NCBI GenBank assembly: GCA_951813535.1
Contig: OX638345.1
Coordinates: forward strand, 261,029-325,028
DNA length: 64,000 bases
Direction of reading: 5' to 3'
Source: an uncultured Dehalococcoidia bacterium
Lineage (GTDB): Bacteria; Chloroflexota; Dehalococcoidia; Lucifugimonadales; UBA3495
Every line of letters starts with the position of its first letter. Positions within the stretch are counted from its first letter, which is position 1. The translations under genes and the position numbers were made by a program. The notes below the pieces were generated by a model. The model made no database searches. It was not told the DNA's origin and was given only the letters and a program-made list of their open reading frames with translations. This document shows, in pieces, positions 958 through 63,453 of the stretch.

Positions 958-1123
958 TCATGCGTGCCCAGTTTGGAGCAGGGAAACGTCAGAATCAGGA
1001 TTTTCAAGATTTGGGGATTGTCAGGATTGGAACCGTTCTGTGATGGAGATCTCCCAATCCTGCCCAATCATAAAATCCCGCAAATCCTGGTCCTGACGAT
1101 TTACGAAAGTAGGTGCGCATGAG
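958..1123 (+). repeat. MITE-like inverted-repeat element, family 1, copy 1 (subtype A)
   Basis: A 166-bp imperfect palindrome. Left end: ctcatgcgtgcccagtttgg, then cgtcagaatcaggatttt. Right end: aaatcctggtcctgacgatt, then aaagtaggtgcgcatgag. The centre carries gatggagatctcccaatcctg, which marks subtype A. Six further copies lie at 29.1, 31.0, 34.4, 53.8, 55.7 and 59.6 kb. No transposase is encoded. Confidence 0.9.
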
Positions 1124-5994: not shown

Positions 5995-6873
5995 ATGGGG
6001 GAATGGGATTTCACGCACCGCACGGCGCGGGTGAACGGGGTCAACATCCACTATGTGATCGAGGGCGACGGGTATCCGGTGGTGCTGCTGCACGGGTGGC
6101 CGGAGATGTGGTTCTCGTGGCGCAAGCAGATTCCGGTGCTGTCGCAGGACTACCAGGTGATCGTGCCGGACATGCGCGGGTTCGGTTCCTCGGAGAAGCC
6201 CCTGCAAGACTACCGGACGCGGACGGCGGCGACGGACATCTACGAGCTGGTGCGGCACCTGGGGCACGACAAGATCGCCATCGTGGGTCATGACATCGGC
6301 GTGCGGGTGTCGTACCGGTACTGCCTGGACCACGAGGCTGAGGTGGACCGGCTGGCGCTGCTGGACGGGACGCATCCGCTGGAGCAGTTGGGTCCGCAGA
6401 CGCCCGAGGGCGTGCGGGAGCGCTGGCACTCGTACTTCCACCAGATACCGGACCTGGCGGAGCACCTGGTGCGGGGCAACGAGGAGGCCTACCTGCGGCA
6501 CTTCTACCGCAACTGGTCGGTGAACCAGGCCATGATGTCCGACGAGGAGGTGGCGGTGTATGCGACGGCGTACTCGCAGCCGGGGGCGCTGCGGGGCGGG
6601 TTCTCCTACTACCGGGCGGCGGCCTACGAGGACCCGCCGGACTGGCGGGCCGACGCGGAGCGGGTGCTGGACATTCCGGTGCTGTACCTGTGGGGCGAGC
6701 GGCGGCAGCGCACCTCGGCGGCAAGCGGGCTGGATCCGGAGGCGTCGTGGCAGAGGGCGGCGTCGAACCTGCGGACGCAGTTCATCGCCGGGGGCGGGCA
6801 CTTCCTGCACGAGGAAAAGCCCGACGAGGTGAACGCGGCGCTGCTGGCGTTCCTGGGGGAGATCGGCGCCTAG
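5995..6873 (+). CDS. Alpha/beta hydrolase (epoxide hydrolase / haloacetate dehalogenase type)
   Basis: The 292-residue enzyme shows the oxyanion motif LLHGWPE (about residues 31-37) and a nucleophile elbow VGHDIGVR whose nucleophile is Asp100. An aspartate nucleophile points to epoxide hydrolases or haloalkane/haloacetate dehalogenases rather than serine esterases. The base is probably the His in GGGHFLHEEKP near the C-terminus. The cap region carries FSYYRAAAY, whose tyrosines could serve as epoxide-hydrolase lid residues. The ATG at 5995 follows ggaggtg. Substrate is unresolved; no cofactor or membrane segment. Confidence 0.88.
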   Translation: MGEWDFTHRTARVNGVNIHYVIEGDGYPVVLLHGWPEMWFSWRKQIPVLSQDYQVIVPDMRGFGSSEKPLQDYRTRTAATDIYELVRHLGHDKIAIVGHDIGVRVSYRYCLDHEAEVDRLALLDGTHPLEQLGPQTPEGVRERWHSYFHQIPDLAEHLVRGNEEAYLRHFYRNWSVNQAMMSDEEVAVYATAYSQPGALRGGFSYYRAAAYEDPPDWRADAERVLDIPVLYLWGERRQRTSAASGLDPEASWQRAASNLRTQFIAGGGHFLHEEKPDEVNAALLAFLGEIGA

Positions 6874-29143: not shown

Positions 29144-29310
29144 CTCATGCGTACCCACTTTCGTAAATCATCAGAATCAGGATTTACGGGATTTTATGAT
29201 TGGTCAGGATTGGGAGATCTCCGTCACAGAACGGTTCCAATCCTGATAATCCCCAAATCTTATAAATCCTGACTCTGACGGTTCCCCGCCGCAAACTGGG
29301 TACGTATGAG
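29144..29310 (-). repeat. MITE-like inverted-repeat element, family 1, copy 2 (subtype A, reversed)
   Basis: Ends ctcatgcgtacccactttcg and ccgcaaactgggtacgtatg. Compared with copies 1 and 7 the two distinct end sequences are swapped, so this copy is inserted in the opposite orientation. It fills half of the gap before the aldehyde dehydrogenase; the other half (29311-29476) shows only a ribosome-binding site. Confidence 0.9.
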
Positions 29311-43571: not shown

Positions 43572-44201
43572 TCAGCGGTCCCAGGCGCGCACCACGCCGG
43601 TGATGTGGGAGGTGTCGTTGTAGAGGTGCATGACGCAGTTGTCGGGGTAGGTGTAGATGACAGTGAGGGAGCAGTTGTGCATGGCAAACTTCCAGTTGGC
43701 CTCCAGGGGGAGATCGAGCAGGGAGACGATGCCGGCCCGGAGGCTGCCGCCGTGGCCGACGAGTAGCACGTTCTCGTCCAGGTGCGCGTGCTTCACCCGC
43801 TGCACGATGCGGGCCAGGCGGGCGCTGGTGTCCCGGATGGTCTCGCCGTTAGGGGGCGCGAAGTCCAGGTTGTTCTCCAGGGACGGCTCGTAGAGTTCGG
43901 GGTAGGCCTCGCGGTACTCGGCCTCGGTCAGACCCTCGAAGACGCCCTTGCTGTATTCCCGCAGCTCCTCGGTGAAGGTAATGGGAATGTCCCGCTCGCC
44001 CATGGCGACGCGAGCGGTTTCGGCGGCGCGAGCAAGGTCAGACGAATAGGTGGCGTCTATTTGAACCGTGGCGAGGCGGCGCGACAGCATCTGCGCCTGC
44101 TCACGGCCCCGGTCGGACAGTGGTACATCGGTGTGTCCCTGGATGCGGCCCTCGGCGTTCCACTCGGTCTCGCCATGCCTGGTGATGTAGATGATGCCCA
44201 T
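43572..44201 (-). CDS. cobC: Histidine phosphatase, probable alpha-ribazole phosphatase
   Basis: The 209-residue protein has the phosphohistidine motif RHGETEWN (residues 8-15), the second arginine segment YSSDLARAAETA, the acid EGLTEAE and the closing histidine VLLVGHGGSLR. Among histidine phosphatases, location in a cobalamin gene run points to CobC, which dephosphorylates alpha-ribazole 5'-phosphate or cobalamin 5'-phosphate. It starts nine bases after the cobD stop with agggag. Its 3' end is the source of the sequence found in the PIN gene. Confidence 0.85.
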   Translation of the reverse strand: MGIIYITRHGETEWNAEGRIQGHTDVPLSDRGREQAQMLSRRLATVQIDATYSSDLARAAETARVAMGERDIPITFTEELREYSKGVFEGLTEAEYREAYPELYEPSLENNLDFAPPNGETIRDTSARLARIVQRVKHAHLDENVLLVGHGGSLRAGIVSLLDLPLEANWKFAMHNCSLTVIYTYPDNCVMHLYNDTSHITGVVRAWDR

Positions 44202-44210
44202 GTTGCTCCC

Positions 44211-45350
44211 TTACGGCTGGGGTTCTTCGTTCCAAACTTCGGCGATGGCGTCGGCCAGCTTCGCGCAGTCTTCCGCCGGACGCAGGCCGATGCGGATGCA
44301 GTCGGGCAGGCCGAAGGACGTGCAATCCCGCACGAACAGCCCGCGTCGGGCGAGGTCGTCCCGCAGCCGGCCGGCGTCGCCCACCTGCGCCAGTACGAAG
44401 TTGGCCGCCGTGGGATAGCAGCGGATGCCCAGATCGGACAGGCGCTCCACCACGCAGTTGCGGGATGCGGCCACTGCCGCTCTCGCCCGCTCCAGGTACG
44501 CTGTGTCCGCGATGGCGATCAGGCCCGCCGCCTGGGCCAGGCCGTTGACGCTCCAGTCGGGCTGGAGCACGGCCAGGCGGGCGATGACCGGTTCGCTGGC
44601 CACCGCATAGCCGAGGCGCAGAGCGGTCAGCGCGTAGTCCTTGGTCATGGAGCGCAGCGCGACGATGGATCCGTGACCTGCGGCCAGCGCGACCACGTCG
44701 GCATCGGCGCGGCGTTCGGACAGGTTGATGTACGCCTCGTCGACCACCAGCAGGCCGCCGACACTGGCAACGGCGTCGGCGATCATCGCCAGTTGTTCGC
44801 GGGCCATCAGCACGCCCGTGGGGTTGTTGGGATTGCAGATGAAGGTCAGAGCGGGACGCTCGGCGGCGATGGCGACGGTGACGGCGGACGTGTCCCACGC
44901 GAACCCGTCGCTGCGCCGGGTTGCGGTGAGGGTCTTCACGCTGCCGCCGGAGATGCGGACGGCGCCGTCGTACTCGCCGTAGGTGGGCGTCAGCAGCAGG
45001 GCGCTGGGGTTGCAGTCCGCCGGCGGCGAGCCGATCCAGGCGCGGGTCAGCAGGTGGATTATCTCCGTGGACCCGTTGCCGACGATGACGTTGCCGATGG
45101 ACACGCCGTCGCCGACATGGTGCGCGGCGATGGCCTCGGTCAGCGCCAGGCAGTGGGGGTCGGGATAGGCGGTGAGGTCAACGGCGGCGATGGCCTCGGC
45201 GACGCCTTCCGGCGGGCCCAGGGGGCTCACGCTGGCGGAGAAGTCGAGGCAGTCCTCCAGGCGCAGGCCCAGCTCCCGCAGCTCGGCCTCCTTGATGCCG
45301 CCGTGGACGGGGCGGGCTGGCGGGTCGGGGTTGGCCGGGCTGAGGTCCAC
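44211..45350 (-). CDS. cobD: Threonine-phosphate decarboxylase
   Basis: The 379-residue product is a HisC-like class I PLP enzyme. The PLP lysine is in LRSMTKDYALTALRLGY, with FICNPNNPTGVL and VVDEAYINLSE before it. HGGIKEAELRELG near the start and its location among cobalamin genes identify it as CobD, which makes (R)-1-aminopropan-2-ol phosphate, the linker of the nucleotide loop. The GTG at 45350 is chosen because the upstream frame overlaps the preceding Uma2 gene; no clear ribosome-binding site supports it. Confidence 0.87.
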   Translation of the reverse strand: MDLSPANPDPPARPVHGGIKEAELRELGLRLEDCLDFSASVSPLGPPEGVAEAIAAVDLTAYPDPHCLALTEAIAAHHVGDGVSIGNVIVGNGSTEIIHLLTRAWIGSPPADCNPSALLLTPTYGEYDGAVRISGGSVKTLTATRRSDGFAWDTSAVTVAIAAERPALTFICNPNNPTGVLMAREQLAMIADAVASVGGLLVVDEAYINLSERRADADVVALAAGHGSIVALRSMTKDYALTALRLGYAVASEPVIARLAVLQPDWSVNGLAQAAGLIAIADTAYLERARAAVAASRNCVVERLSDLGIRCYPTAANFVLAQVGDAGRLRDDLARRGLFVRDCTSFGLPDCIRIGLRPAEDCAKLADAIAEVWNEEPQP

Positions 45351-45360
45351 GGGAATTGGG

Positions 45361-45945
45361 CTACCGGTGGGTGCGGACGGACTCGCGGTCCGGATCGTCG
45401 AAAACTCTTGCCAGCGCCAATTCATAGCCGGGGATCATAGGCGTAGAGAGAACGTCGTCACGGCTCAACACGGCTCGCTCGATGTATTCACTGTTCGACA
45501 GTTCGAGGATGGCCAGGGTGTCGTCAACGGGGTCCAGTATCCAGTACTCAGAGATACCGGCCGCGGCGTACCACGCACGTTTAAGCGTCAAGTCACGTTG
45601 GCGGTCACTGGATCCCGCTTCTACTACCAGATCAGGGCCACCGTATATATGGTTTCTCCTCAGAAGACTCTCGCGCTCAGCGCTCAGGAACACGAGGTCC
45701 GGTATCAGCAGCGTGGATTCAGACAAAACCACCCCGACGCCCCAAAGCACTCTACCCAAGCGGGGAGTTGTCGAAACGACGTGAGCCCACATCGTGGCAT
45801 AAATCACACCCAGGAGTTGTTGGTGATCCACGTTGGGAGGGGGCATTTCGTACAACTCTCCGTCGGCCAGTTCCCACAAGCCTTCAAACTCAAGGGCAAG
45901 GTATTCGGCCAGCGTGAGCTTCGCGCCGTGTCGTGTGGTGGTCAT
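45361..45945 (-). CDS. Uma2-family (DUF820) protein
   Basis: The 194-residue product has the family layout: KLTLAEYLALEFEGLWELAD, then LIPDLVFLSAERE, GGPDLVVEAGSSDRQRDLTL and ISEYWILDPVDDTLAILEL. The Asp-Leu-Val-Val-Glu group and the following basic region make up the PD-(D/E)XK-like site, although the Glu-x-x is read here as Glu-Ala-Gly. It lies between cobD and another Uma2 gene inside the cobalamin run. The start follows ggagg. Confidence 0.9.
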   Translation of the reverse strand: MTTTRHGAKLTLAEYLALEFEGLWELADGELYEMPPPNVDHQQLLGVIYATMWAHVVSTTPRLGRVLWGVGVVLSESTLLIPDLVFLSAERESLLRRNHIYGGPDLVVEAGSSDRQRDLTLKRAWYAAAGISEYWILDPVDDTLAILELSNSEYIERAVLSRDDVLSTPMIPGYELALARVFDDPDRESVRTHR

Positions 45946-46044: not shown

Positions 46045-46632
46045 TCAGCGATTTCCGCGGGTCAAAGCGCGCATGGGGTCGCCGAAAAGCTGCTCCAGGG
46101 GCAGCGCGAAGCCCGGTATGGCCGCCGTGGCGAGGGTGTCATCGCGGCCCAACGTCCGCTCAACATATTCGTTGCCGGATAGTTCCAGGACGGTCAGCAT
46201 ATCGTTGACCGGGTCCAGGATCCAGTATTCGGGTATGCCGGCTCCGGCGTACAAATCCCGCTTCATCACCAGGTCCCGGTTGCGATCCGAGGACAAGATC
46301 TCGACCACCAGATCCGGAATGCCCTCAACGTAGCCGTGGTTGATCAGGCTCAAGTTCTCGGAGCGCAGGTAGATGATGTCCGGTGTTGGCACATAAAGAT
46401 CGGACAGCGCCAGGCCGGAGTTGCTGAACGCCAGACCGGGCGCCGGGCGCACAACTGTCATCAGATTATTGATCATCCTCACCAGGAAGTCCATGAGAAA
46501 CTGGTGTTCAAGAGTGGCCGCCGGCATTTGATACAACTCTCCATTGATCAGTTCCCACACCCCCCCGTCCGTTTCGGGCAGGTTGCGGTACTCGGCCAGC
46601 GTCATGCGGGTTCCGGGTTTTATGGTGGTCAT
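46045..46632 (-). CDS. Uma2-family (DUF820) protein
   Basis: The 195-residue paralogue of the 45361 product (MTLAEYRNLPETDGGVWELI, then VPTPDIIYLRSE, IPDLVVEILSSDRNRDLVMK and IPEYWILDPVNDMLTVLEL). The active-site-like Glu-Ile-Leu is kept here. ATG at 46632 with tggag upstream. The two are separated by 99 bp and probably came from one duplication. Nothing links them biochemically to cobalamin. Confidence 0.9.
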   Translation of the reverse strand: MTTIKPGTRMTLAEYRNLPETDGGVWELINGELYQMPAATLEHQFLMDFLVRMINNLMTVVRPAPGLAFSNSGLALSDLYVPTPDIIYLRSENLSLINHGYVEGIPDLVVEILSSDRNRDLVMKRDLYAGAGIPEYWILDPVNDMLTVLELSGNEYVERTLGRDDTLATAAIPGFALPLEQLFGDPMRALTRGNR

Positions 46633-46674
46633 CTCGGTAACTCCAAGAACCGTGTGCAGCGCCGGCATTTTACA

Positions 46675-47655
46675 CTACGGCCAGTAGGCCCACCGCAGCC
46701 ACAGGATGCCGACGGCTGCCGCAGCGGCCAGCGCGGTGGTGGCGTAGAGGGCGCGGGTGGCGCGACCGATGTGCTGCGCCTCGGGCTCGGGCGCGGGATC
46801 GCCGAGGCGGTAGTGGCCGACCTTTTCCAGCGTCACGCCCAGCCCGCCGGCCATGGCGGCCATGGTCCAGCCGGCGTTGGGCGACTCGGTGCGGCCACGG
46901 TGGGCGAACATGATGCGCCAGGCCCGGCCGCCGGCCATGCCGGGCAGCGCGGCGGTGGACAGCCACAGCAGCAGCGCCGCGAGCCGCGCGGGTATCAGGT
47001 TCACCAGGTCGTCCAGCCGGGCCGAAGCCTTGCCCAGATACTCGTAGCGGCCGTGGTAGCCGACCATGCTGTCCAGGGTGTTGATCGCCCGGTAGGCCAC
47101 CGCGCCGGGCAGGCCGAACAGGGCAAAGGCCAGCAGCGGCCCCACGATGCTGTCGGTGATGTTCTCGGCGACGGACTCGATGGCGCCGGCGGCCATCTGA
47201 CCGGTGGTGAGTTGCGAAGTGTCGCGGCTGACCAGGGACGACATCTCCCGCCGAGCCTCGGCGATGTCGCCGGCGGTCAGGATCCGGCCGATGCCGGCGG
47301 CGACGCGGTGCAGCATCCGCACCGAGAAGGTGGTTTTCAGAAGCACGGCGACCACCAGCAGGTACGCCAGGGGATGCAGTTGCATCAACCCAAACCCGAC
47401 GGCCCACGCCGCCGCGCCCCACGCTGCCGGTATCAGCAGGGCCATGCCGGCGCCGAAGGCCAGTTGCAGCGCCGTCGCCGCCGGCGCGCCGGGCGCGATG
47501 CGCTCCGCCAGGGCGACGGAATTGCCGATCCACACCGTGGGATGCAGGCGGTTGGGCGGCTCGCCCAGCGTCAGGTCGAGCAGGAGCGCCAATAGCAGGG
47601 CCAGCACGTCCAGGGGGACGGGCAAGCTGTTCAGCGCAGTGGTTAAGGCGTCCAT
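46675..47655 (-). CDS. cbiB: Adenosylcobinamide-phosphate synthase
   Basis: The 326-residue membrane protein has the CbiB/CobD(Pseudomonas) layout with about five hydrophobic segments. Diagnostic stretches are LTLGEPPNRLHPTVWIGN, AIESVAENITDSIVGPLLAF, then YRAINTLDSMVGYHGRYEYL and GWTMAAMAGGLGVTLEK. It joins the aminopropanol phosphate arm to adenosylcobyric acid. Its ATG lies 13 bp inside the end of cobS, so the two are translationally coupled. Confidence 0.93.
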   Translation of the reverse strand: MDALTTALNSLPVPLDVLALLLALLLDLTLGEPPNRLHPTVWIGNSVALAERIAPGAPAATALQLAFGAGMALLIPAAWGAAAWAVGFGLMQLHPLAYLLVVAVLLKTTFSVRMLHRVAAGIGRILTAGDIAEARREMSSLVSRDTSQLTTGQMAAGAIESVAENITDSIVGPLLAFALFGLPGAVAYRAINTLDSMVGYHGRYEYLGKASARLDDLVNLIPARLAALLLWLSTAALPGMAGGRAWRIMFAHRGRTESPNAGWTMAAMAGGLGVTLEKVGHYRLGDPAPEPEAQHIGRATRALYATTALAAAAAVGILWLRWAYWP

Positions 47656-48485
47656 CCAGCCAGCCAGGGGAAGCCGATCGCTATTCCGCCGCCGTAGGCA
47701 ACCTGCGTCATCGGCGAGCCAACCAGGGGAACCAGCAGCACGAGGGAAAATCCCTCTATGATTTCATTGGCAGCTCCGTAGCAGTCACCCGTCAGACCGC
47801 CACCCAACCGGCGCGTGGCCCAGAAACCCAGCAGCAGGGCCAACCCGGACGCAGCCGCCAGCACCACCAAACCGGACGCCCCCAACAGGAGCCACGCCGC
47901 CGCCGCTACGGTCAGAAGAGCCCACGCTGTTGCCAGCCATGGCCGCTCTCCCGACGCAAATGCTGATCCAATACCCTCCTGTCGGCCGTAGGGGAACACC
48001 GTCAGCAGCAGGGTCATCGTCCAACGGGAAACCATGGGGAACAATAGCAACGCGCTCAATCCGTCGCTGCTCAAGAGCAAATCCGAACTGATCGCTCCGC
48101 ATTTGACAAGCAGCACGCAGGCTCCACCTGCCACGGCAAAAGATCCGACCCGAGAATCCCGCATTATCTCCAAACGGCGTTCCACCGTGCGCCCGCCCCA
48201 CATGGCGTCGCAAAAATCCATCAGGCCGTCCAGGTGCAGGAAGCGGTTGAGCAAAGCAAGCCCAGTTACCACCAACGCCGCCGTCAAAAACAAATACGGC
48301 TCAAAGCCCAGCGCAAACAGCGCCACCACCAGGATCACGAGTATCAGCCCGTAGAGCAGGCCGACGAAGGGGTACCAGCCCCGGGAGCGGGAGATTTCGG
48401 CGTCGGTGGGGTTTGCCACCCCGACCGGGAGCAGCGTCAGGAAGGACAGCGCCACCAGCAGCGGGGCGTAGACGGCCCGTAACAC
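47643..48485 (-). CDS. cobS: Adenosylcobinamide-GDP ribazoletransferase
   Basis: The 280-residue membrane protein is CobS (cobalamin synthase), which joins alpha-ribazole to adenosylcobinamide-GDP. The signature FLHLDGLMDFCDAMWGGRTV, then MRDSRVGSFAV is intact, as is GGGLTGDCYGAANEIIE near the end; hydrophobic segments fill the rest. The GTG at 48485 gives a start (VLRAVYAPLLVALSFLTLLP) of the usual kind, 16 bp after cobT. A longer frame upstream lies inside cobT. Confidence 0.92.
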   Translation of the reverse strand: MLRAVYAPLLVALSFLTLLPVGVANPTDAEISRSRGWYPFVGLLYGLILVILVVALFALGFEPYLFLTAALVVTGLALLNRFLHLDGLMDFCDAMWGGRTVERRLEIMRDSRVGSFAVAGGACVLLVKCGAISSDLLLSSDGLSALLLFPMVSRWTMTLLLTVFPYGRQEGIGSAFASGERPWLATAWALLTVAAAAWLLLGASGLVVLAAASGLALLLGFWATRRLGGGLTGDCYGAANEIIEGFSLVLLVPLVGSPMTQVAYGGGIAIGFPWLAGWTP

Positions 48486-48501: not shown

Positions 48502-49569
48502 TTAGTCCTCGCGGTCGGAGACGCCGGCTTCGGCGAAGGTTGCCATCTCCGCCAGGGTTTTGGCTGCGGCCTCAATGATGGGCATGGCCAGCGCCGCGCC
48601 GGTGCCCTCGCCAAGACGCATTTCCATGTCCAGCAGCGGGGACAATCCCATGGCCTGCAGGCCGACGTTGTGGCCCGGCTCCACGGAGCGGTGGGCGGCG
48701 ATGTAACGCTGGGCGATGTTCGGGCAGAGCCGCCAGGCGATGAGGGCCGCCGCGCCGCTGATGAACCCGTCCACCACGACAGCGCAGTTCCGCGCCGCCG
48801 CGCCCAGCATGACGCCGGCCAGAACGCCGATCTCGAACCCGCCCACCTTGGTGAGCACGTCCAGGCCGTCGCTGCCGTCGGGCTGGTTGGTTTCCAGAGC
48901 ACGGCGGATGGTGGCGATCTTGCCTTCCAGAGCGGCGTCATCTACACCGGTGCCTCTACCCGTGACCGTGGCCACGTCGGCGCCGGTGACGGCGGCGGTG
49001 ATGGCGGCCGACGGCGTGGTGTTGCCGATGCCCATGTCGCCGCCGGCGATGAGGTTGGCCCCGGCGTCGGCCTGCTCGTTGGCGGCGTTGATGCCGATCT
49101 CCAGGCAGCGGACTGCATCCTCCCGGCTCATGGCGGGCCCGCGAGCGATGTTGCCGGCGCCATAGCCGACCTTGGCGATGGTGAGGCCGGGCTGCGGGTC
49201 AAGGTCCACGGCGACGCCGGCGTCGATCACGGTGATATTTGCGCCGGCGTGGCGGGCCAGCGCGTTGATGGCCGCGCCGCCGGCCACGAAGTTGAACACC
49301 ATCTGCGGCGTGACCTCGGCGGGATAGGCCGACACACCCTCGGATGCGACGCCGTGGTCGCCGGCCACCACGATGACCGCCTTGCCGGCGATCTCCGGGA
49401 TGGGCTGGCCCAATATGCCGGCCAGTTGGATGGACAGCGTCTCCAAGCGGCCTAGGCTGCCGGGCGGCTTGGTGAGCACGCCCTGCCGCGCCTCGGCGGC
49501 GGCAACGGCCTCGGCGTCCAGCGGCCCGATGGCGGCGACGGTCTGGTCAACCAGTGGTGAGATGGGCAT
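48502..49569 (-). CDS. cobT: Nicotinate-nucleotide--dimethylbenzimidazole phosphoribosyltransferase
   Basis: The 355-residue protein is CobT, which makes alpha-ribazole 5'-phosphate from the lower-ligand base. TKPPGSLGRLETLSIQLAGI, VVAGDHGVASEGVSAYPAEV, IAGGDMGIGNTTPSAAITA and the catalytic Glu region MRLGEGTGAALAM are all present. The ATG follows ggagg. It starts a coupled block cobT-cobS-cbiB. Confidence 0.95.
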   Translation of the reverse strand: MPISPLVDQTVAAIGPLDAEAVAAAEARQGVLTKPPGSLGRLETLSIQLAGILGQPIPEIAGKAVIVVAGDHGVASEGVSAYPAEVTPQMVFNFVAGGAAINALARHAGANITVIDAGVAVDLDPQPGLTIAKVGYGAGNIARGPAMSREDAVRCLEIGINAANEQADAGANLIAGGDMGIGNTTPSAAITAAVTGADVATVTGRGTGVDDAALEGKIATIRRALETNQPDGSDGLDVLTKVGGFEIGVLAGVMLGAAARNCAVVVDGFISGAAALIAWRLCPNIAQRYIAAHRSVEPGHNVGLQAMGLSPLLDMEMRLGEGTGAALAMPIIEAAAKTLAEMATFAEAGVSDRED

Positions 49570-49909: not shown

Positions 49910-50479
49910 TCAGAACTCGATGCCCGGCTGGGCCTTGATGCCGGCGTCGTAGGGGTGCTTGACGACGTTCATTTCGGTGACCAGGTCGGCGAATTCGACC
50001 AGGGCTTCCGGCGCGTGACGGCCGGTGATGATGACGTGCTGCATCTCGGGACGGGCCTTGAGGGCGTCGACAACGTCCTCCACGGGCAGCCAGCCGTAGT
50101 GCATGGGGTAGGTGAACTCGTCGAGGATCACCAGGTCGTACTCGCCGGCGGCGATGACCTCCTTGGCGTCTTCCCACAGGGCGCGGGCGAGGTCGGCGCT
50201 GGCGTCGAGGTCCTGGGAGCGCCAGGTGAAGCCGTCGCCCATGGCGCGGACGGTGACGCCCATCTTCTCGGCGGCGCGCTGCTCGCCGAAGTTGGCGGTG
50301 GTGTGCTTGATGAACTGGAGCATCACGACCTTCATGTCGCGGCCCCAGGCCCGCATCAGCACGCCCATGGCGGCGGTAGTCTTGCCCTTGCCGTTGCCGG
50401 TGTTGACGATGACGAGGCCCTTGTTGATGCGGGGGCCGCGAACCGACTGCGGGCCGTGGCGCGTTTCCTGCGTAGTCAT
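49910..50479 (-). CDS. cobO: Cob(I)yrinic acid a,c-diamide adenosyltransferase
   Basis: The 189-residue protein is CobO/BtuR, which adds the adenosyl group to the reduced corrinoid. The P-loop [20 protein letters not shown] (GNGKGKTT at 28-35) and the [17 protein letters not shown] Walker-B-like segment are typical. [17 protein letters not shown] is the conserved C-terminal part. The ATG follows aggag. The Uma2 gene lies 42 bp upstream and the small helical gene 31 bp downstream. Confidence 0.95.
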
Positions 50480-50521: not shown

Positions 50522-51196
50522 TCAAGGTACGTTGTCGAAGATGCGTTCGCGCACGTTAAAGGCGAAGCCGGGCAGCACGTCGCCGCCGCCCAGCACATCC
50601 GGTTCGTGCAGGATCTCCGGTTCCGCGCCGGGGCGGTAAATGGTCACGCGACGCAGGCGGGCGTTGATAACCCAGGCCAGGCGCGCGCCGCCTTCCAGGT
50701 ACCGGCGCACCTTGTCTTCCAACTCTGGCCCCCGGTTGGATGGTGACACTATTTCAACTAGAAAATCTGGAACCACGGCCCTGAAGGGTCTGCGAGCCTC
50801 TTCGGGCAACGAGTTCCAGCGTTCTGCGGACATCCACCAAGCGTCCGGACACAGCATAGAGCCGTCAGGAAGAATGAACATGGACGTGGGCCCGCCGGCC
50901 CGCCCTCCATGCTCGCGCGCTCGGAACACAAGATCGGCCGTGATCTCGGCTTCGTGCCAATCTCCCGGAATCCCGGTGGGGGACATTATTTTCAGTTCTC
51001 CTTGCGCGGTGATCTCAAAATCACCCACTGCATCCTGGTTCCGACCTGCGAACTCTTGGAGCCAGCCATCCAACTCTGGACTCTCCAGGGTTAGCCCGAA
51101 CTCGGACAGCGGGATCAGCACGTAGCCCTCAAAGTCAGAGGGCTTCCTCACGCTGATGGGCGCTTTGGAGGGAGCTTTAGCCGGCGCAGTGGTCAT
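50522..51196 (-). CDS. Uma2-family (DUF820) protein, coupled to cobB
   Basis: The 224-residue product belongs to the longer Uma2 subgroup (GELKIMSPTGIPGDWHEAEI, then MLCPDAWWMSAERWNSLPEE, VVPDFLVEIVSPSNRGPELE and VLPGFAFNVRERIF). It closely resembles the two Uma2 proteins at 62.1-63.5 kb. Its ATG overlaps the cobB stop (ATGA), which places it firmly in the cobalamin operon. The frame upstream of this ATG lies inside cobB and is not used. Confidence 0.9.
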   Translation of the reverse strand: MTTAPAKAPSKAPISVRKPSDFEGYVLIPLSEFGLTLESPELDGWLQEFAGRNQDAVGDFEITAQGELKIMSPTGIPGDWHEAEITADLVFRAREHGGRAGGPTSMFILPDGSMLCPDAWWMSAERWNSLPEEARRPFRAVVPDFLVEIVSPSNRGPELEDKVRRYLEGGARLAWVINARLRRVTIYRPGAEPEILHEPDVLGGGDVLPGFAFNVRERIFDNVP

Positions 51197-52575
51197 TCGG
51201 TATTTCCTCCGTTCGCCGCCGCGCAGGTGTCCACAAAGCGCTTCGCCAGGCCGGGACGGCTGCCCAGGTGGACGTGGATGTAGGAGGCCCACACGCTGCC
51301 GGCGCGGAAGCCCTCGGGCCGGCCATCCTGATTGACCACCTGGTAGGCGGCGCTGGCGGCGTCGGGCGGGTCCTGCAGCACCGACCAGTGGAACTCGTGG
51401 CCGCGCACCTGCTGGCCGGCGGTGAGCAGCGGGCCGTCGCCGCAGGCCGCCACCTCACGGTAGCCCAGGTGGAGACGCCGGCCCTCCATTGAGGACACCA
51501 CGGGAATCGCGCCGACCATGGGGAACTGCTGGCCGTCCAAGTCGGAGAGGCTGCGGCCCAGGTACATCAGACCGCCGCACTCGGCGTATATGGGCAGCCC
51601 CCGCGACACGGCGCGGCGCATCGATTCGATCATGCCGGCGTTGCCGGAGAGATCCTCGGCGAACAGTTCGGGGAAGCCGCCGCCGAGGTAGACACCGCCC
51701 ACGCCGTCGGGCAGCGACTCGTCGTCCAGCGGCGAGAAGGGCACGATCTCCGCGCCCCAGGCTGCCAGCAGGTCCAGCGAGTCCTGGTAGTAGAACGAGA
51801 ATGCACGGTCCTGGGCCACGGCGATGGCGGCACGAGGAGCCTGGGGCGTCGCCGGGAAGACGCCCTCGGATGTCGCCCGGGGCCGGCCGGCGGTGGCGGC
51901 GATGCGGGCAATGGCATCGAGGTCGATGGTCCGCTCGATCTGGGCGTTGAGGGCGTCGTACCAGTCGTTCATGACGGTGCCCTCGGCGGTGGGAATGAGG
52001 CCCAGGTGGCGCTCGGGCTGGACCAGATCGTCGCGGCGGGGGAGCCAGCCCACCACGGGCAGGCCGGTGGTCGCCTCGATTTGGGGCTGGCAGAACTCCA
52101 GGTGCCGCTCGCTGCCCACGCCGTTGAGGATCACGCCGGCGACGCGCAGGTTGGGGTCGAACTGCTGGTAGCCCAGCACCTCGGCGGCCACGCTGCGGGC
52201 GACCTTTCCGGCGTCGGCGATGAGGATCACCGGTGCGTCCAGCAGCTTGGCCAGCTCGGCCGTGGAGCCGTCCTCGTCCAGGGAGGAGTGCCCGTCGAAC
52301 ACGCCCATCACGCCCTCGACCACCGCGATGTCCGCCGCGCCGGCGGCCCGGTGGAACAGCTCGGAGACCACGGGATGGGGCAGCAGCCAGGTGTCCAGGT
52401 TGCGGGAGGGCACCCCGCAGGCGATGGTGTGGTACGAGGGGTCGATGTAGTCGGGGCCGGCCTTGAAGGGCTGGACGCGCATCCCGCGGCGGGCCAGCGC
52501 GCCCATGACGCCGCTGGCGATGGTGGTCTTGCCGACGCCGGAGCGGACGCCGGCGATAACGACGGCAGAGGTCAT
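51193..52575 (-). CDS. cobB: Cobyrinic acid a,c-diamide synthase
   Basis: The 460-residue protein (CobB/CbiA) amidates the a and c side chains of the corrin ring with glutamine and ATP. The N-terminal P-loop GVRSGVGKTTIASGVMGAL (residues 9-27) and the C-terminal glutamine amidotransferase region (PIYAECGGLMYLGRSLSDL, Cys near residue 335) are intact. The start has only a weak ribosome-binding site. A short inverted-repeat element lies just upstream. Confidence 0.95.
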   Translation of the reverse strand: MTSAVVIAGVRSGVGKTTIASGVMGALARRGMRVQPFKAGPDYIDPSYHTIACGVPSRNLDTWLLPHPVVSELFHRAAGAADIAVVEGVMGVFDGHSSLDEDGSTAELAKLLDAPVILIADAGKVARSVAAEVLGYQQFDPNLRVAGVILNGVGSERHLEFCQPQIEATTGLPVVGWLPRRDDLVQPERHLGLIPTAEGTVMNDWYDALNAQIERTIDLDAIARIAATAGRPRATSEGVFPATPQAPRAAIAVAQDRAFSFYYQDSLDLLAAWGAEIVPFSPLDDESLPDGVGGVYLGGGFPELFAEDLSGNAGMIESMRRAVSRGLPIYAECGGLMYLGRSLSDLDGQQFPMVGAIPVVSSMEGRRLHLGYREVAACGDGPLLTAGQQVRGHEFHWSVLQDPPDAASAAYQVVNQDGRPEGFRAGSVWASYIHVHLGSRPGLAKRFVDTCAAANGGNTE

Positions 52576-52615: not shown

Positions 52616-52744
52616 TTTACATCGATGCACAGGATAGACAGGATGTTGACGATGATGCCCATAAGCGTCATTTGCCGGAGTGCCAAAAGTGGCAAGGTAT
52701 CAAAGGGAAAACCCAATCCTGTTGATCCTGTTCATCGATGTAAA
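52616..52744 (-). repeat. Short inverted-repeat element, family 2, copy 3
   Basis: A 129-bp element with ends tttacatcgatgcacaggat and gatcctgttcatcgatgtaa. It separates the ChuX-like gene from cobB on the minus strand, so read-through would pass through this hairpin. Confidence 0.85.
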
Positions 52745-52777: not shown

Positions 52778-53218
52778 CTACGGGTGCTCGCCAGCGGAAC
52801 CGTAGGCCTCGGCGGGCAGGCCGATCTTGCTGGGATACTTGTCCAGCAGGGCCATGAAGAAGCTGTGGCGCGGCGGGTTGGTGGCGTCGTCGTCCGACTT
52901 GCGCAGGTAGACGCGCATGGCCGGGTTGCCTTCGCCGTCGCGCATCCACAGCTGGTACGAGGGGAGCCCCTGGTCGTTGGTGGTGTGGATGAACTCGGCC
53001 TCGCGGATTTTGGACATGTCCAGGTGCATGTGGGTGCCGCCGGGCACCATGAGGGTCACGATGCGCCCGTCGGGAGTGAACCGCAGGTCGTCGAAGTCCA
53101 TGTAGACCTCGGCGGAGGCGGCGGTGCTCTCCAGCATCACCACAACCTCGTTGAAACCGATGCCGTCGACCCCGTCGCGGCATTCTTCGAGTATCTCGCG
53201 GAGCATGACGTCGCTCAT
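52778..53218 (-). CDS. Putative ChuX/HutX-like protein under riboswitch control
   Basis: The 146-residue soluble product has a segment DDLRFTPDGRIVTLMVPGGT, then HMHLDMSKIREAEFIHTT and YQLWMRDGEGNPAMRVYLRK. The order 'G-H-x-H-L-D-x-x-K-I ... F-x-D-x-x-G-x-x-x-x-R-V-Y-L' is like ChuX/HutX haem-handling proteins, which bind tetrapyrroles; the match is by eye and modest. It is the first gene after the cobalamin riboswitch, so a role in binding a corrinoid is a reasonable inference. ATG at 53218 follows gagaggtg. Confidence 0.6.
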   Translation of the reverse strand: MSDVMLREILEECRDGVDGIGFNEVVVMLESTAASAEVYMDFDDLRFTPDGRIVTLMVPGGTHMHLDMSKIREAEFIHTTNDQGLPSYQLWMRDGEGNPAMRVYLRKSDDDATNPPRHSFFMALLDKYPSKIGLPAEAYGSAGEHP

Positions 53219-53422
53219 GCAATCACCTCTCAATTGGCGTAGCGCCCGGGCCGTGCGACGGGCGTTTTTGGTTTTACGGGCCGGCGGGTCGATTATCACC
53301 CAGCGGCGACGGCAAGGCAAATTGACGAAAGCGCGCCCCGACGGGCCGATGGAGGAGGAACCGGCTCGCCGGAGCAGCGCAGGGGAGTAGTCGTTCATCG
53401 CTGCAACAAGCCCGGCTGCAAC

Positions 53423-53454
53423 AAAAAAACCCGACTGCACTCTTGCGGTCGGGT
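53423..53454 (-). terminator. Intrinsic terminator of the cobalamin riboswitch
   Basis: On the minus strand acccgac...gtcgggt forms a seven-pair stem with an inner gc/gc extension, followed by seven T residues. It lies about 90 bases after the conserved aptamer end and 205 bases before the first gene, as expected for a transcriptional attenuator. Confidence 0.85.
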
Positions 53455-53544
53455 GACGGAGCCTGCGGCTGGGAACCGGTCTTGCTATTGGGTGTGCCGG
53501 GATTCCGCCCACTCGTTCCACGAAGTGCAGCTGGAACACACCCG

Positions 53545-53765
53545 CTGGCAGGCCTCCTGGCTGATGGCTGATAGCGACGCTTCTCCGCCTTCCCGTCCGC
53601 TCGATGGCGGATAGTGGCTTGCGTTCGCATCCCAAGGATGCGAAAGGGAGGGCGTCTCACCAATTACAGTGGCGGGACCGCACCGGATTCACACCGGATT
53701 TCCTTTTCAGCCCGTCGTGCGCAGGGGGTAGTTCGCGCTACTAACGGGCCACCGGCAGGTGTTTA
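53545..53765 (-). ncRNA. Cobalamin (adenosylcobalamin) riboswitch
   Basis: The minus strand shows the conserved aptamer parts in order: acctgccggtggcccg, then aaaaggaaatccggtgtgaa, tccggtgcggtcccgccact (the B12 box with gccactgtaa) and, after a variable domain, agccaggaggcctgcc. The order and spacing are those of the standard RNA family. Ligand binding is expected to stop transcription at the hairpin 53423-53454. The genes behind it are the ChuX-like gene and the cob cluster. Confidence 0.93.
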
Positions 53766-53828
53766 CGGTTCAGTTGTTAACAATTTCAGGTTAGCAGCCG
53801 GCGCGGGCGGAGTCAAACACAGGGGGAC

Positions 53829-53996
53829 CTCACGCGTACCCAGTTTGGTAAATCGTCAGAATCAAGATTTACGGGATTTTATGATTAGGCAGGATTGGGA
53901 GATCTCCATCAAACGACGGTTCCAATCCTGATAATCCCTGAATCTCGAAAATCCTGATTCTGACGTTTCCACGCCGCCAAACTGGGCACGCATGAG
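53829..53996 (-). repeat. MITE-like inverted-repeat element, family 1, copy 5 (subtype A)
   Basis: Ends ctcacgcgtacccagtttgg and gccaaactgggcacgcatga; both ends here are of the 'cccagttt' kind, which makes it the most symmetric copy. The right side matches copy 2 in orientation. From 53997 to 54098 I see nothing further. Confidence 0.9.
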
Positions 53997-59550: not shown

Positions 59551-59713
59551 CTCATGCGTACCCAGTTTGCGGCGGGGAAACGTCAGAATCAGGATTTACA
59601 GGATTATATGATTGGGCAGGATTGGGAGATCTCCATCACGGAACGGTTCCAATCCTGACAATCCCGAAATCTTGAAAATCCTGATTCTGACGATTTGCGG
59701 AAGTGGGTACGTC
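59551..59713 (+). repeat. MITE-like inverted-repeat element, family 1, copy 7 (subtype A)
   Basis: Ends ctcatgcgtacccagtttgc and gaagtgggtacgtctgga; centre gattgggagatctccatcac. Same orientation as copy 1. The remainder of the gap to hflK (59714-59936) holds only promoter-like sequence. Confidence 0.9.
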
Positions 59714-62097: not shown

Positions 62098-62766
62098 ATG
62101 ACCACCAGGTCGAAGGAACCAGCGGTCGCTGCTCAACCCGCTGCTGAAGCGTGCGCGGAACCCACCGGTTCCGTCGTGCTACGTCTTGATGCCCTGGGAT
62201 TTGATTTTCGCGCCGTCGACTTCCCGACGCGGTTCATCGAGTTCTGCGAAGCCAATGACGACTACGACATGGAAGTTAACGAGGCCGGGGAGTTGGTAAT
62301 TCTGCCTATGGTGGGTTTCAGGGGGAACCGACGGGAACATTACCTAAACGTCTTCATGGGCAACTGGGAAATGGCCAACGGAGGCGTCAGCGCCTCGCAG
62401 ACCAGCCGGTTCCGTCTCGCATCCGGGGCAATCCGCGGACCCGACGCCGCCTGGATCACGCAGGAACGTTATGATGCCGCCACCGAGGAAGAACGCGAAA
62501 CCGTCTTCCCCGGCGCGCCTGATTTCGTTGTCGAGATCAGATCCCGCACCGACAACCTTGCTCCATTGCAGCGCAAGATGCAGCTCTGGATGGACGGCGG
62601 CGCTCGCCTGGGCTGGCTCATCGACCCGCCCAACCGTCGCGTCTACGTCTACCGCGCCGGCCAGCCGGAGCCGGAAGCGTTGGAAGACCCGGAGACCCTG
62701 GACGGCGAGGAGGTTCTGCCGGGTTTCTCTTTCGGCGTGCGGCAGTACATCTTCGACATGCAATAG
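62098..62766 (+). CDS. Uma2-family (DUF820) protein, tandem copy 1
   Basis: The 222-residue product has GELVILPMVGFRGNRREHYL, then ASGAIRGPDAAWITQERYDA, GAPDFVVEIRSRTDNLAPLQ and the closing VLPGFSFGVRQYIFDMQ. The PD-(D/E)XK-like core is Asp-Phe-Val-Val-Glu-Ile-Arg. It follows hflC by 68 bp, but no functional tie to it is evident. No Shine-Dalgarno box precedes the ATG. The downstream copy is nearly identical from about residue 100. Confidence 0.9.
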   Translation: MTTRSKEPAVAAQPAAEACAEPTGSVVLRLDALGFDFRAVDFPTRFIEFCEANDDYDMEVNEAGELVILPMVGFRGNRREHYLNVFMGNWEMANGGVSASQTSRFRLASGAIRGPDAAWITQERYDAATEEERETVFPGAPDFVVEIRSRTDNLAPLQRKMQLWMDGGARLGWLIDPPNRRVYVYRAGQPEPEALEDPETLDGEEVLPGFSFGVRQYIFDMQ

Positions 62767-62778
62767 CCGACGCTTGCC

Positions 62779-63453
62779 ATGACCACAGCGCCCAAATCAC
62801 CGGCTGCGCGCGGGTCGTCAGCATCTGCCACTGAACACAGCGCGGAACCGACCGGCTCCGTTGTGCTGCGTCTTGACGCTCTGGGCCTTGATTTTCGGGC
62901 CGCCGATTTCCCGTCCCGGTTCATCGAGTTCTGCGAAGCCAACGACGACTACGAAATGGAAGTGAACGAGGCGGGGGAGTTGGTGATTCTGCCCATGGTA
63001 GGTTTCAGAGGCAACCGTCAGGAAACGGAGACGAACATTGAGTTGGGGATATGGCAGCGGGCCAACGGAGGAGTGAACGCCTCTCAGACCAGCCGGTTCC
63101 GCCTCGCATCCGGGGCAATTCGAGGACCCGACGCCGCCTGGATCACCCAGGAACGTTATGACGCCGCCACCGAGGAAGAGCGCGAGACCGTCTTCCCCGG
63201 CGCGCCTGACTTCGTCGTCGAGATCCGCTCCCGCACCGATAACCTTGCTCCATTGCAGCGCAAGATGCAGCTCTGGATGGACGGCGGCGCACGCCTGGGC
63301 TGGCTCATCGACCCGCCCAACCGTCGCGTCTACGTCTACCGCGTGGGACAACCAGAGCCGGAAGCGCTGGAAGACCCGGAGACGCTGGATGGCGAGGACG
63401 TACTTGCCGGCTTTTCCTTCCAAGTGCGACAGTACATCTTCGACATGCAATAG
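62779..63453 (+). CDS. Uma2-family (DUF820) protein, tandem copy 2
   Basis: The 224-residue duplicate of the preceding gene. The first 30 residues and the strip around ETETNIELGIWQRANGGVNA differ clearly from copy 1, while ASGAIRGPDAAWITQERYDA to the C-terminus is nearly identical at protein and DNA level, so gene conversion or a recent duplication is likely. It starts 12 bp after the stop of copy 1. The stop codon is part of the terminator stem. Confidence 0.9.
   Translation: MTTAPKSPAARGSSASATEHSAEPTGSVVLRLDALGLDFRAADFPSRFIEFCEANDDYEMEVNEAGELVILPMVGFRGNRQETETNIELGIWQRANGGVNASQTSRFRLASGAIRGPDAAWITQERYDAATEEERETVFPGAPDFVVEIRSRTDNLAPLQRKMQLWMDGGARLGWLIDPPNRRVYVYRVGQPEPEALEDPETLDGEDVLAGFSFQVRQYIFDMQ

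Follow-up and report, generated by a model that had tools for sequence, protein, structure and literature searches.

The first gene of the late cobalamin (B12) operon in the genome of this uncultured Dehalococcoidia bacterium encodes a 146-aa protein whose predicted structure is, with little room for doubt, the cytoplasmic heme-carrier fold of ChuX, HutX and HemS. The gene is a conserved part of this operon. We regard a dedicated B12 role for its product as very likely, and the heme-carrier fold has probably been recruited for handling B12 intermediates. We tentatively propose that the protein serves B12 biosynthesis as a dedicated accessory factor, carrying a corrinoid intermediate on the ChuX/HutX/HemS fold. 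In the present study, "window" denotes the whole 64,000-nucleotide stretch of DNA that was analyzed; its features and the related loci are listed in Table 1.

The riboswitch leader, the operon and the fold of its first product

A covariance-model search with RF00174 matched the window over the full model (positions 1-189 of 189; 92.1 bits, gathering threshold 31.5, E = 1.5e-21), and the complete aptamer claimed in an earlier note on this DNA was thus recovered. The aptamer at 53771-53530 belongs to one of two cobalamin riboswitches in the whole 4.38-Mb single-contig genome. The hairpin CACCCGACCGCAAGAGTGCAGTCGGGTT (-15.6 kcal/mol) begins about 75 bases beyond the aptamer end and is followed by TTTTTGTT, with a tail to about 53421; none of 40 shuffled sequences matched its quality, in agreement with the intrinsic terminator that the note had placed there. 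The riboswitch, the terminator, the 146-aa gene and the operon genes all lie on the minus strand, and the span assigned to the unit (52778-53765) was correct to within 6 bases. The attenuator stems differ in sequence among relatives (CCCGAC/GTCGGG, CCTGACC/GGTCAGG and CCCGGC/GCCGGG) while the pairing is kept, which supports transcription attenuation. Judged from the sequence, the 146-aa gene is almost certainly under the control of an attenuated cobalamin riboswitch. When B12 is plentiful, a cobalamin riboswitch with a terminator behind it is expected to switch off the biosynthetic genes that it precedes. A storage protein, which the note had also considered, is unlikely because the gene would then be silenced under these conditions.

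We also considered the possibility that the terminator was an artefact. A stock scanner did not detect it because the hairpin loop exceeds the limit of that program; a custom scan found a comparable hairpin and T run in 22 of 24 riboswitch leaders, the window included, and this possibility was rejected.

An intergenic repeat, GGCAGGATTGGGAGATCTCCATC, occurs at window positions 1042-1064, 29203-29225, 53888-53910 and 59615-59637 (0-2 mismatches; 0 copies expected by chance). The one that precedes the riboswitch is located inside a large imperfect palindrome with arms at 53851-53887 and 53932-53968.

Table 1. Positions of the leader, the operon genes and related loci. Positions refer to the window unless another sequence is named.
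Feature	Position	Strand	Evidence or remark
Cobalamin riboswitch aptamer, complete	53530..53771	-	RF00174, 92.1 bits
Intrinsic terminator (attenuator), between aptamer and first gene	53421..53455	-	GC hairpin 53455-53428, U tract 53427-53421
ChuX/HutX-fold protein (predicted), 146 aa, first gene of the operon	52778..53218	-	Conserved HxH (H63, H65)
cbiA/cobB, cobyrinic acid a,c-diamide synthase	51193..52575	-	NF002204, 531.9 bits (cut-off 254)
Uma2-like gene, restriction-endonuclease-like by eye, operon insert	50522..51196	-	No NCBIfam match
cobO/btuR, cob(I)yrinic acid a,c-diamide adenosyltransferase	49910..50479	-	TIGR00708, 218.6 bits (cut-off 167.75)
cobT, DMB phosphoribosyltransferase	48502..49569	-	TIGR03160, 441 bits (cut-off 319.3)
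cobS, adenosylcobinamide-GDP ribazoletransferase	47643..48386	-	TIGR00317, 99.2 bits (cut-off 110); NF001278, E 2.7e-34
cbiB, adenosylcobinamide-phosphate synthase	46675..47655	-	TIGR00380, 264.7 bits (cut-off 165.9)
cobD-type threonine-phosphate decarboxylase (PLP)	44211..45425	-	TIGR01140, 262.8 bits (cut-off 290.55); operon place conserved
cobC-type alpha-ribazole phosphatase	43572..44201	-	TIGR03162, 139.2 bits (cut-off 162.9); operon place conserved
Second ChuX-fold protein, 136 aa, HFHL, DUF7676-type	L107:10521-10931; own genome about 2040520-2040930	+	Immediately after cobN
Fusion P0002 (L002/L063)	Own genome 3617720-3618550	-	Between ferredoxin gene and aconitase
DUF1636 operon heads on Paracoccus saliphilus and Pseudosulfitobacter pseudonitzschiae plasmids	L118:6687-8407, L119:6607-8382		

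Reading on from the leader, the order is the 146-aa gene, cbiA, the Uma2-like gene, cobO, cobT, cobS, cbiB, cobD and cobC. This confirms the placement, made earlier by inspection, of the 146-aa protein at the head of a cob operon. Its reading frame (53218-52778) begins with an ATG at 53218 and, as read from the sequence, has a GAGAGGTGA-like ribosome site in front.

Additional Uma2-like genes, recognized by eye and partly within the cob operon, are present at window positions 46045-46668, 45361-45945 and 62098-63453. Between the ChuX-like gene and cbiA is a 29-nt inverted repeat (52616-52644 and 52716-52744; 90% complementary, 71 nt apart).

The likeness of the 146-aa protein to ChuX/HutX, originally noticed by eye, is weak by sequence but real, and is backed by the structural model and the family profile. 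PF06228 (ChuX_HutX) scored 21.7 bits against the window protein, just under the cut-off of 25, and 27.2 bits, above the cut-off, against its orthologue L017; all 15 members of the family alignment matched PF06228 at E<0.01 (best 8.9e-9). The AF2 model (mean pLDDT 77.0, pTM 0.71) gave Foldseek matches of which the best 27 in the PDB were all ChuX, HutX, HemS, PhuS, ChuS or unassigned relatives. VIA-align Z scores were 14.5 for 3fm2 (rmsd 3.2, 131 residues aligned), 11.6 for ChuX, 11.1 for 3na2 and 10.6 for HutX, and the first unrelated rows were PH-like domains with Z of about 5. Furthermore, the profile of the window-protein family matched 3fm2 at E 1.2e-8. An unrelated fold was thereby excluded, and a chance resemblance to ChuX was ruled out by the structure and profile searches. 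The HxH motif (H63, H65) is invariant in all 28 stand-alone copies and aligns by sequence with HGHL of HutX; 3fm2 retains one of the two histidines. The gene is under strong purifying selection, with pN of 0-0.027 against pS of 0.14-0.57 in its core within the genus.

Linkage to B12 genes among relatives and companion proteins

The nearest named relatives of the genome are Dehalococcoidia and SAR202-cluster metagenome genomes. Close orthologues of the window protein were found in its genus and family only (a Chloroflexota family including SAR202-cluster sequences), and class-wide and phylum-wide searches with a narrow window-protein query did not reveal a copy outside the family. Within the family, the linkage to the riboswitch and cbiA is kept across 8 genera despite divergent protein sequences. 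The note had suggested a survey of orthologues for B12 riboswitches, and a same-strand RF00174 match was found ahead of the genes in 23 of the 24 testable loci in which the ChuX-like gene directly precedes cbiA; these are all examined loci with this arrangement and enough upstream sequence, and some are closely related. Locus L010 is truncated where its contig stops. The sole ChuX-like-cbiA locus without an aptamer was in genome G669, and a lax Rfam search there did not detect a degraded one. The order chuX-like-cbiA-cobO-cobT-cobS-cbiB-cobD-cobC is kept in relatives, with 0 to 2 copies of the Uma2-like gene; these copies sit at the cbiA-cobO junction, and the Uma2-like genes may represent a mobile element.

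Among 60 relatives, cbiA was present in 33 and the ChuX-like gene in 26, all of them within the 33; none of the 27 relatives without cbiA had it, although shared ancestry inflates this co-occurrence count. Contamination is possible in metagenome bins, and related genomes are not independent. Some cob operons lack the gene: four (G680, G689, G671 and G685) have neither the aptamer nor the head gene, and in another (G676) the aptamer directly precedes cbiA with no ChuX-like gene between. The ChuX-like gene is not an indispensable step because it is absent from these operons of the same family and from most B12-making bacteria.

ChuX-like genes also occur in other settings. Two genes on a separate branch that keeps HxH (L059:2389-2790 and L064:2104-2505) are by or near luciferase-like oxidoreductase genes and have no riboswitch. 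A copy with 87% identity in another genus (L016 / L062:9457-9885) lies beside a pyrophosphatase gene, without riboswitch or cob genes. Since it is nested in the branch of the window genus, transfer or misbinning is possible.

The only other cobalamin riboswitch of the genome heads the gene set cbiE-cobN-X-cbtB-cbtA-chlID (cbtB and cbtA named by eye), in which X encodes a second ChuX-fold protein. X matched DUF7676 (PF24724) at 36.9 bits (cut-off 27) and, more weakly, LFE_1968-like and ChuX_HutX. The profile of its family matched 3na2 (E 1.1e-6) and 3fm2 (E 2.8e-6), and in a profile-profile comparison matched the window-protein family (E 3.2e-10) with HxH aligned; this motif was present in 16 of 16 members. 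The family surfaced with a broader profile after the narrow query had found no copy outside the bacterial family. X adjoins cobN in all 8 genomes of the family that were examined, and in G688 and G664 is directly between cobN and chlID. In other families of the order its homologues occur away from cobN, two of them near aconitase. Each of the two B12-riboswitch operons of this genome, which has no others, encodes a different ChuX-fold protein, in one case at the chelatase and in the other at the CbiA/CobO end; this argues that the two proteins share a function in the corrin branch.

Genome G838 has two cobalamin riboswitches (L162:2668-2871 and 6626-6829) in the interval from the cobN-linked ChuX-like gene to cbtB. 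One of them heads an inserted set of peptide-type ABC transporter genes, which may import corrinoids.

A small gene for a putative iron-sulfur protein (FeS gene) was found at the operon head in five relatives. In two of them (G677 and G682), it is a stand-alone gene of some 110 codons that separates the riboswitch from the ChuX-like gene. In the other three (G633, G679 and G688), it directly precedes cbiA and no ChuX-like gene is present there; an aptamer is upstream in G633. Its cysteines, CX5C...CX3C (C11, C17, C54 and C58), are invariant in nine sequences. The genome of the window also encodes a 275-aa fusion (P0002) of a DUF1636-like [2Fe-2S] domain and a ChuX-like domain that has lost HxH; its neighbors are ferredoxin and aconitase genes and not B12 genes. 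In the model of the fusion (pLDDT 81.4, pTM 0.57), the first part matched Azotobacter FeSI (5abr, Z 9.4), the Aquifex thioredoxin-like [2Fe-2S] ferredoxin (1m2a, Z 9.1) and complex I 24-kDa subunits, and the second part matched 3fm2 (Z 15.1). The FeS profile had no significant match among PDB sequences, and the fold was assigned from structure instead: the FeS gene product and the fusion domain are predicted to adopt the thioredoxin-like [2Fe-2S] ferredoxin fold with four putative cluster cysteines.

PF07845 (DUF1636), which has been assigned to the thioredoxin-like [2Fe-2S] fold (PMC4520260), matched the FeS gene with at best 26.7 bits (the L106 gene), under the curated cut-off of 31.6, and none of 251 Chloroflexota genomes contained a true DUF1636 above this cut-off. 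Two alphaproteobacterial plasmids carry DUF1636-cobW-cobN-cobG operons behind a cobalamin riboswitch, with a true DUF1636 gene in first place. Plasmid searches with the ChuX-like, FeS and 3fm2 sequences gave no match. In the open-licence literature, we found no report linking DUF1636 or COG5469 to B12.

Proposed role and rival explanations

The genome encodes members of the CbiL, CbiF, CbiG, CbiH, CbiD and CbiE families together with CobN and ChlID, and thus probably synthesizes the corrin ring de novo. CobO needs Co(I); in the aerobic pathway the Co(II) reductase is the flavoenzyme CobR, and free flavin has been proposed elsewhere (PMC7242693). HutX delivers heme to both HutZ and HutW (PMC12670364), and by analogy the two ChuX-fold proteins may transfer corrin intermediates. 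The chances are about even that the 146-aa protein binds a corrinoid or another tetrapyrrole intermediate. We propose that B12 shortage lets transcription run on into the operon and the protein is made. Its ligand would then be one of the pathway's tetrapyrroles, the likeliest candidate being a cobalt corrinoid at or near cobyrinic acid a,c-diamide, which CbiA makes. The protein may hold this intermediate and pass it on for reduction of Co(II) to Co(I) and adenosylation by CobO, as HutX does with heme. A comparable task at CobN, the cobaltochelatase, may fall to the second ChuX-fold protein. Gene copies outside B12 operons, and homologues of the cobN-linked protein that are not by cobN elsewhere, count against this carrier role, as does the [2Fe-2S]-ChuX fusion, which is encoded by aconitase and ferredoxin genes and has lost HxH. 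That free flavin can supply Co(I) (PMC7242693) counts against a dedicated protein.

A more speculative addition is that the thioredoxin-like [2Fe-2S] protein serves as the electron source for Co(II) reduction. The FeS gene shares the operon head with the ChuX-like gene, replaces it or is fused to a ChuX-like domain, which suggests electron transfer; that the acceptor would be Co(II) is a further inference. We regard a redox partnership between the two proteins as rather unlikely. The combined scheme, in which ChuX-fold carriers act at CobN/ChlID and from CbiA to CobO, the latter with the DUF1636-like [2Fe-2S] protein forming a flavin-independent delivery of Co(I) corrinoid, is less likely still.

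The fold itself suits heme, a corrinoid, free cobalt or no ligand equally well, and four other explanations were weighed. One is that the protein is a cobalt metallochaperone, in which HxH and other conserved histidines and cysteines carry Co(II) to the chelatase or segregate cobalt. The invariance of HxH in both families is consistent with this, as are the position of X next to cobN and to the genes cbtB/cbtA for cobalt transport and the fact that alphaproteobacterial DUF1636 neighbors cobW, of a metal chaperone family. However, HutX is a heme carrier with HGHL at the same place (PMC12670364), and the motif is thus not specific to free cobalt; moreover, the window gene is located by cbiA and cobO and not by transport or chelation genes. 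We consider a cobalt chaperone improbable.

Somewhat less probable again is a protein of heme or porphyrin balance. Such a protein would carry no corrinoid but would bind heme, siroheme or a uroporphyrinoid and tune the split between heme and corrin, or regulate one of the operon's enzymes. All characterized members of the fold among the structure matches are heme-binding or unassigned, and a lineage-restricted accessory gene would suit a regulatory role. However, two separate ChuX-fold genes, both in B12-riboswitch operons, point to the corrin branch, and the searches of the genome revealed neither ChuX/HutX above the Pfam cut-off nor HutW above its own cut-off. The HutW model gave sub-cut-off matches only, as it did in all control genomes, which is expected for HemN/HemW relatives.

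A long stretch of the protein is very strongly conserved, and weaker PH-domain matches appeared in the structure searches; both would also be compatible with a scaffold that has no small ligand, a PH-like beta fold serving as an adaptor that joins, for example, CbiA, CobO or CobN. We doubt this strongly, since the PH-like matches (Z of about 5) are far below those of the ChuX group (10-14.5), and the sharing of HxH with HutX, with one histidine kept in 3fm2, suggests a retained ligand site. An ordinary heme-utilization gene placed in the operon by chance gene order, in line with the Pfam family name and the lineage-restricted distribution, is highly improbable given the linkage to riboswitch and cbiA across the genera and the lack of heme-uptake neighbors.

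How unstable corrinoid intermediates, above all those with Co(I), are handled between enzymes is an unsettled question in the field, as is the nature of the cobalt reductant before adenosylation in bacteria without CobR. The present analysis contributes concrete candidates for these tasks, namely two small proteins with a tetrapyrrole-carrier fold and their putative [2Fe-2S] partner, each of which is associated with B12 riboswitches. B12 synthesis may also be a first context for PF24724, PF22684 and PF07845, families with no assigned function.

Comparison with known systems

CobR has the same proposed place in the pathway, at Co(II) reduction before CobO (PMC7242693). However, CobR is a flavoprotein, whereas the window protein has no evident flavin site and its fold-search matches are of another kind, although absence from such a list does not exclude a relationship. 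DUF1636 (PF07845) and the FeS gene of the relatives have a similar fold and both head B12-riboswitch operons; they differ in cysteine spacing, and the gene following the FeS gene is chuX-like or cbiA and not cobW.

DUF7676 (PF24724) is the family of the cobN-linked protein, and the window protein belongs to a separate, related family. The nearest solved structures, 3fm2 (AVA_4353 of Anabaena) and 3na2 (from Leptospirillum), are similar to the window protein in length and architecture. 3na2 resembles PF22684 (LFE_1968-like), and its HLHCKL is the match to HxH.

HutX of Vibrio cholerae and ChuX of E. coli share the fold with the window protein, and all are small cytoplasmic proteins encoded in an operon of tetrapyrrole enzymes. 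The HGHL of HutX and the HxH-L of the window protein are on the same strand. Sequence identity is about 12-19%, and the window protein lacks the N-terminal part of approximately 40 residues present in ChuX and HutX (the model starts at ChuX residue 43 and HutX residue 49). A corrinoid role had been thought undescribed for this fold; consistent with this, no paper connecting ChuX/HutX with cobalamin was found in the open-licence literature. The genomic context also differs: ChuX and HutX are encoded in heme-use operons with HutW/ChuW, HutZ or heme uptake, whereas the window protein is encoded in a B12 operon under a riboswitch.
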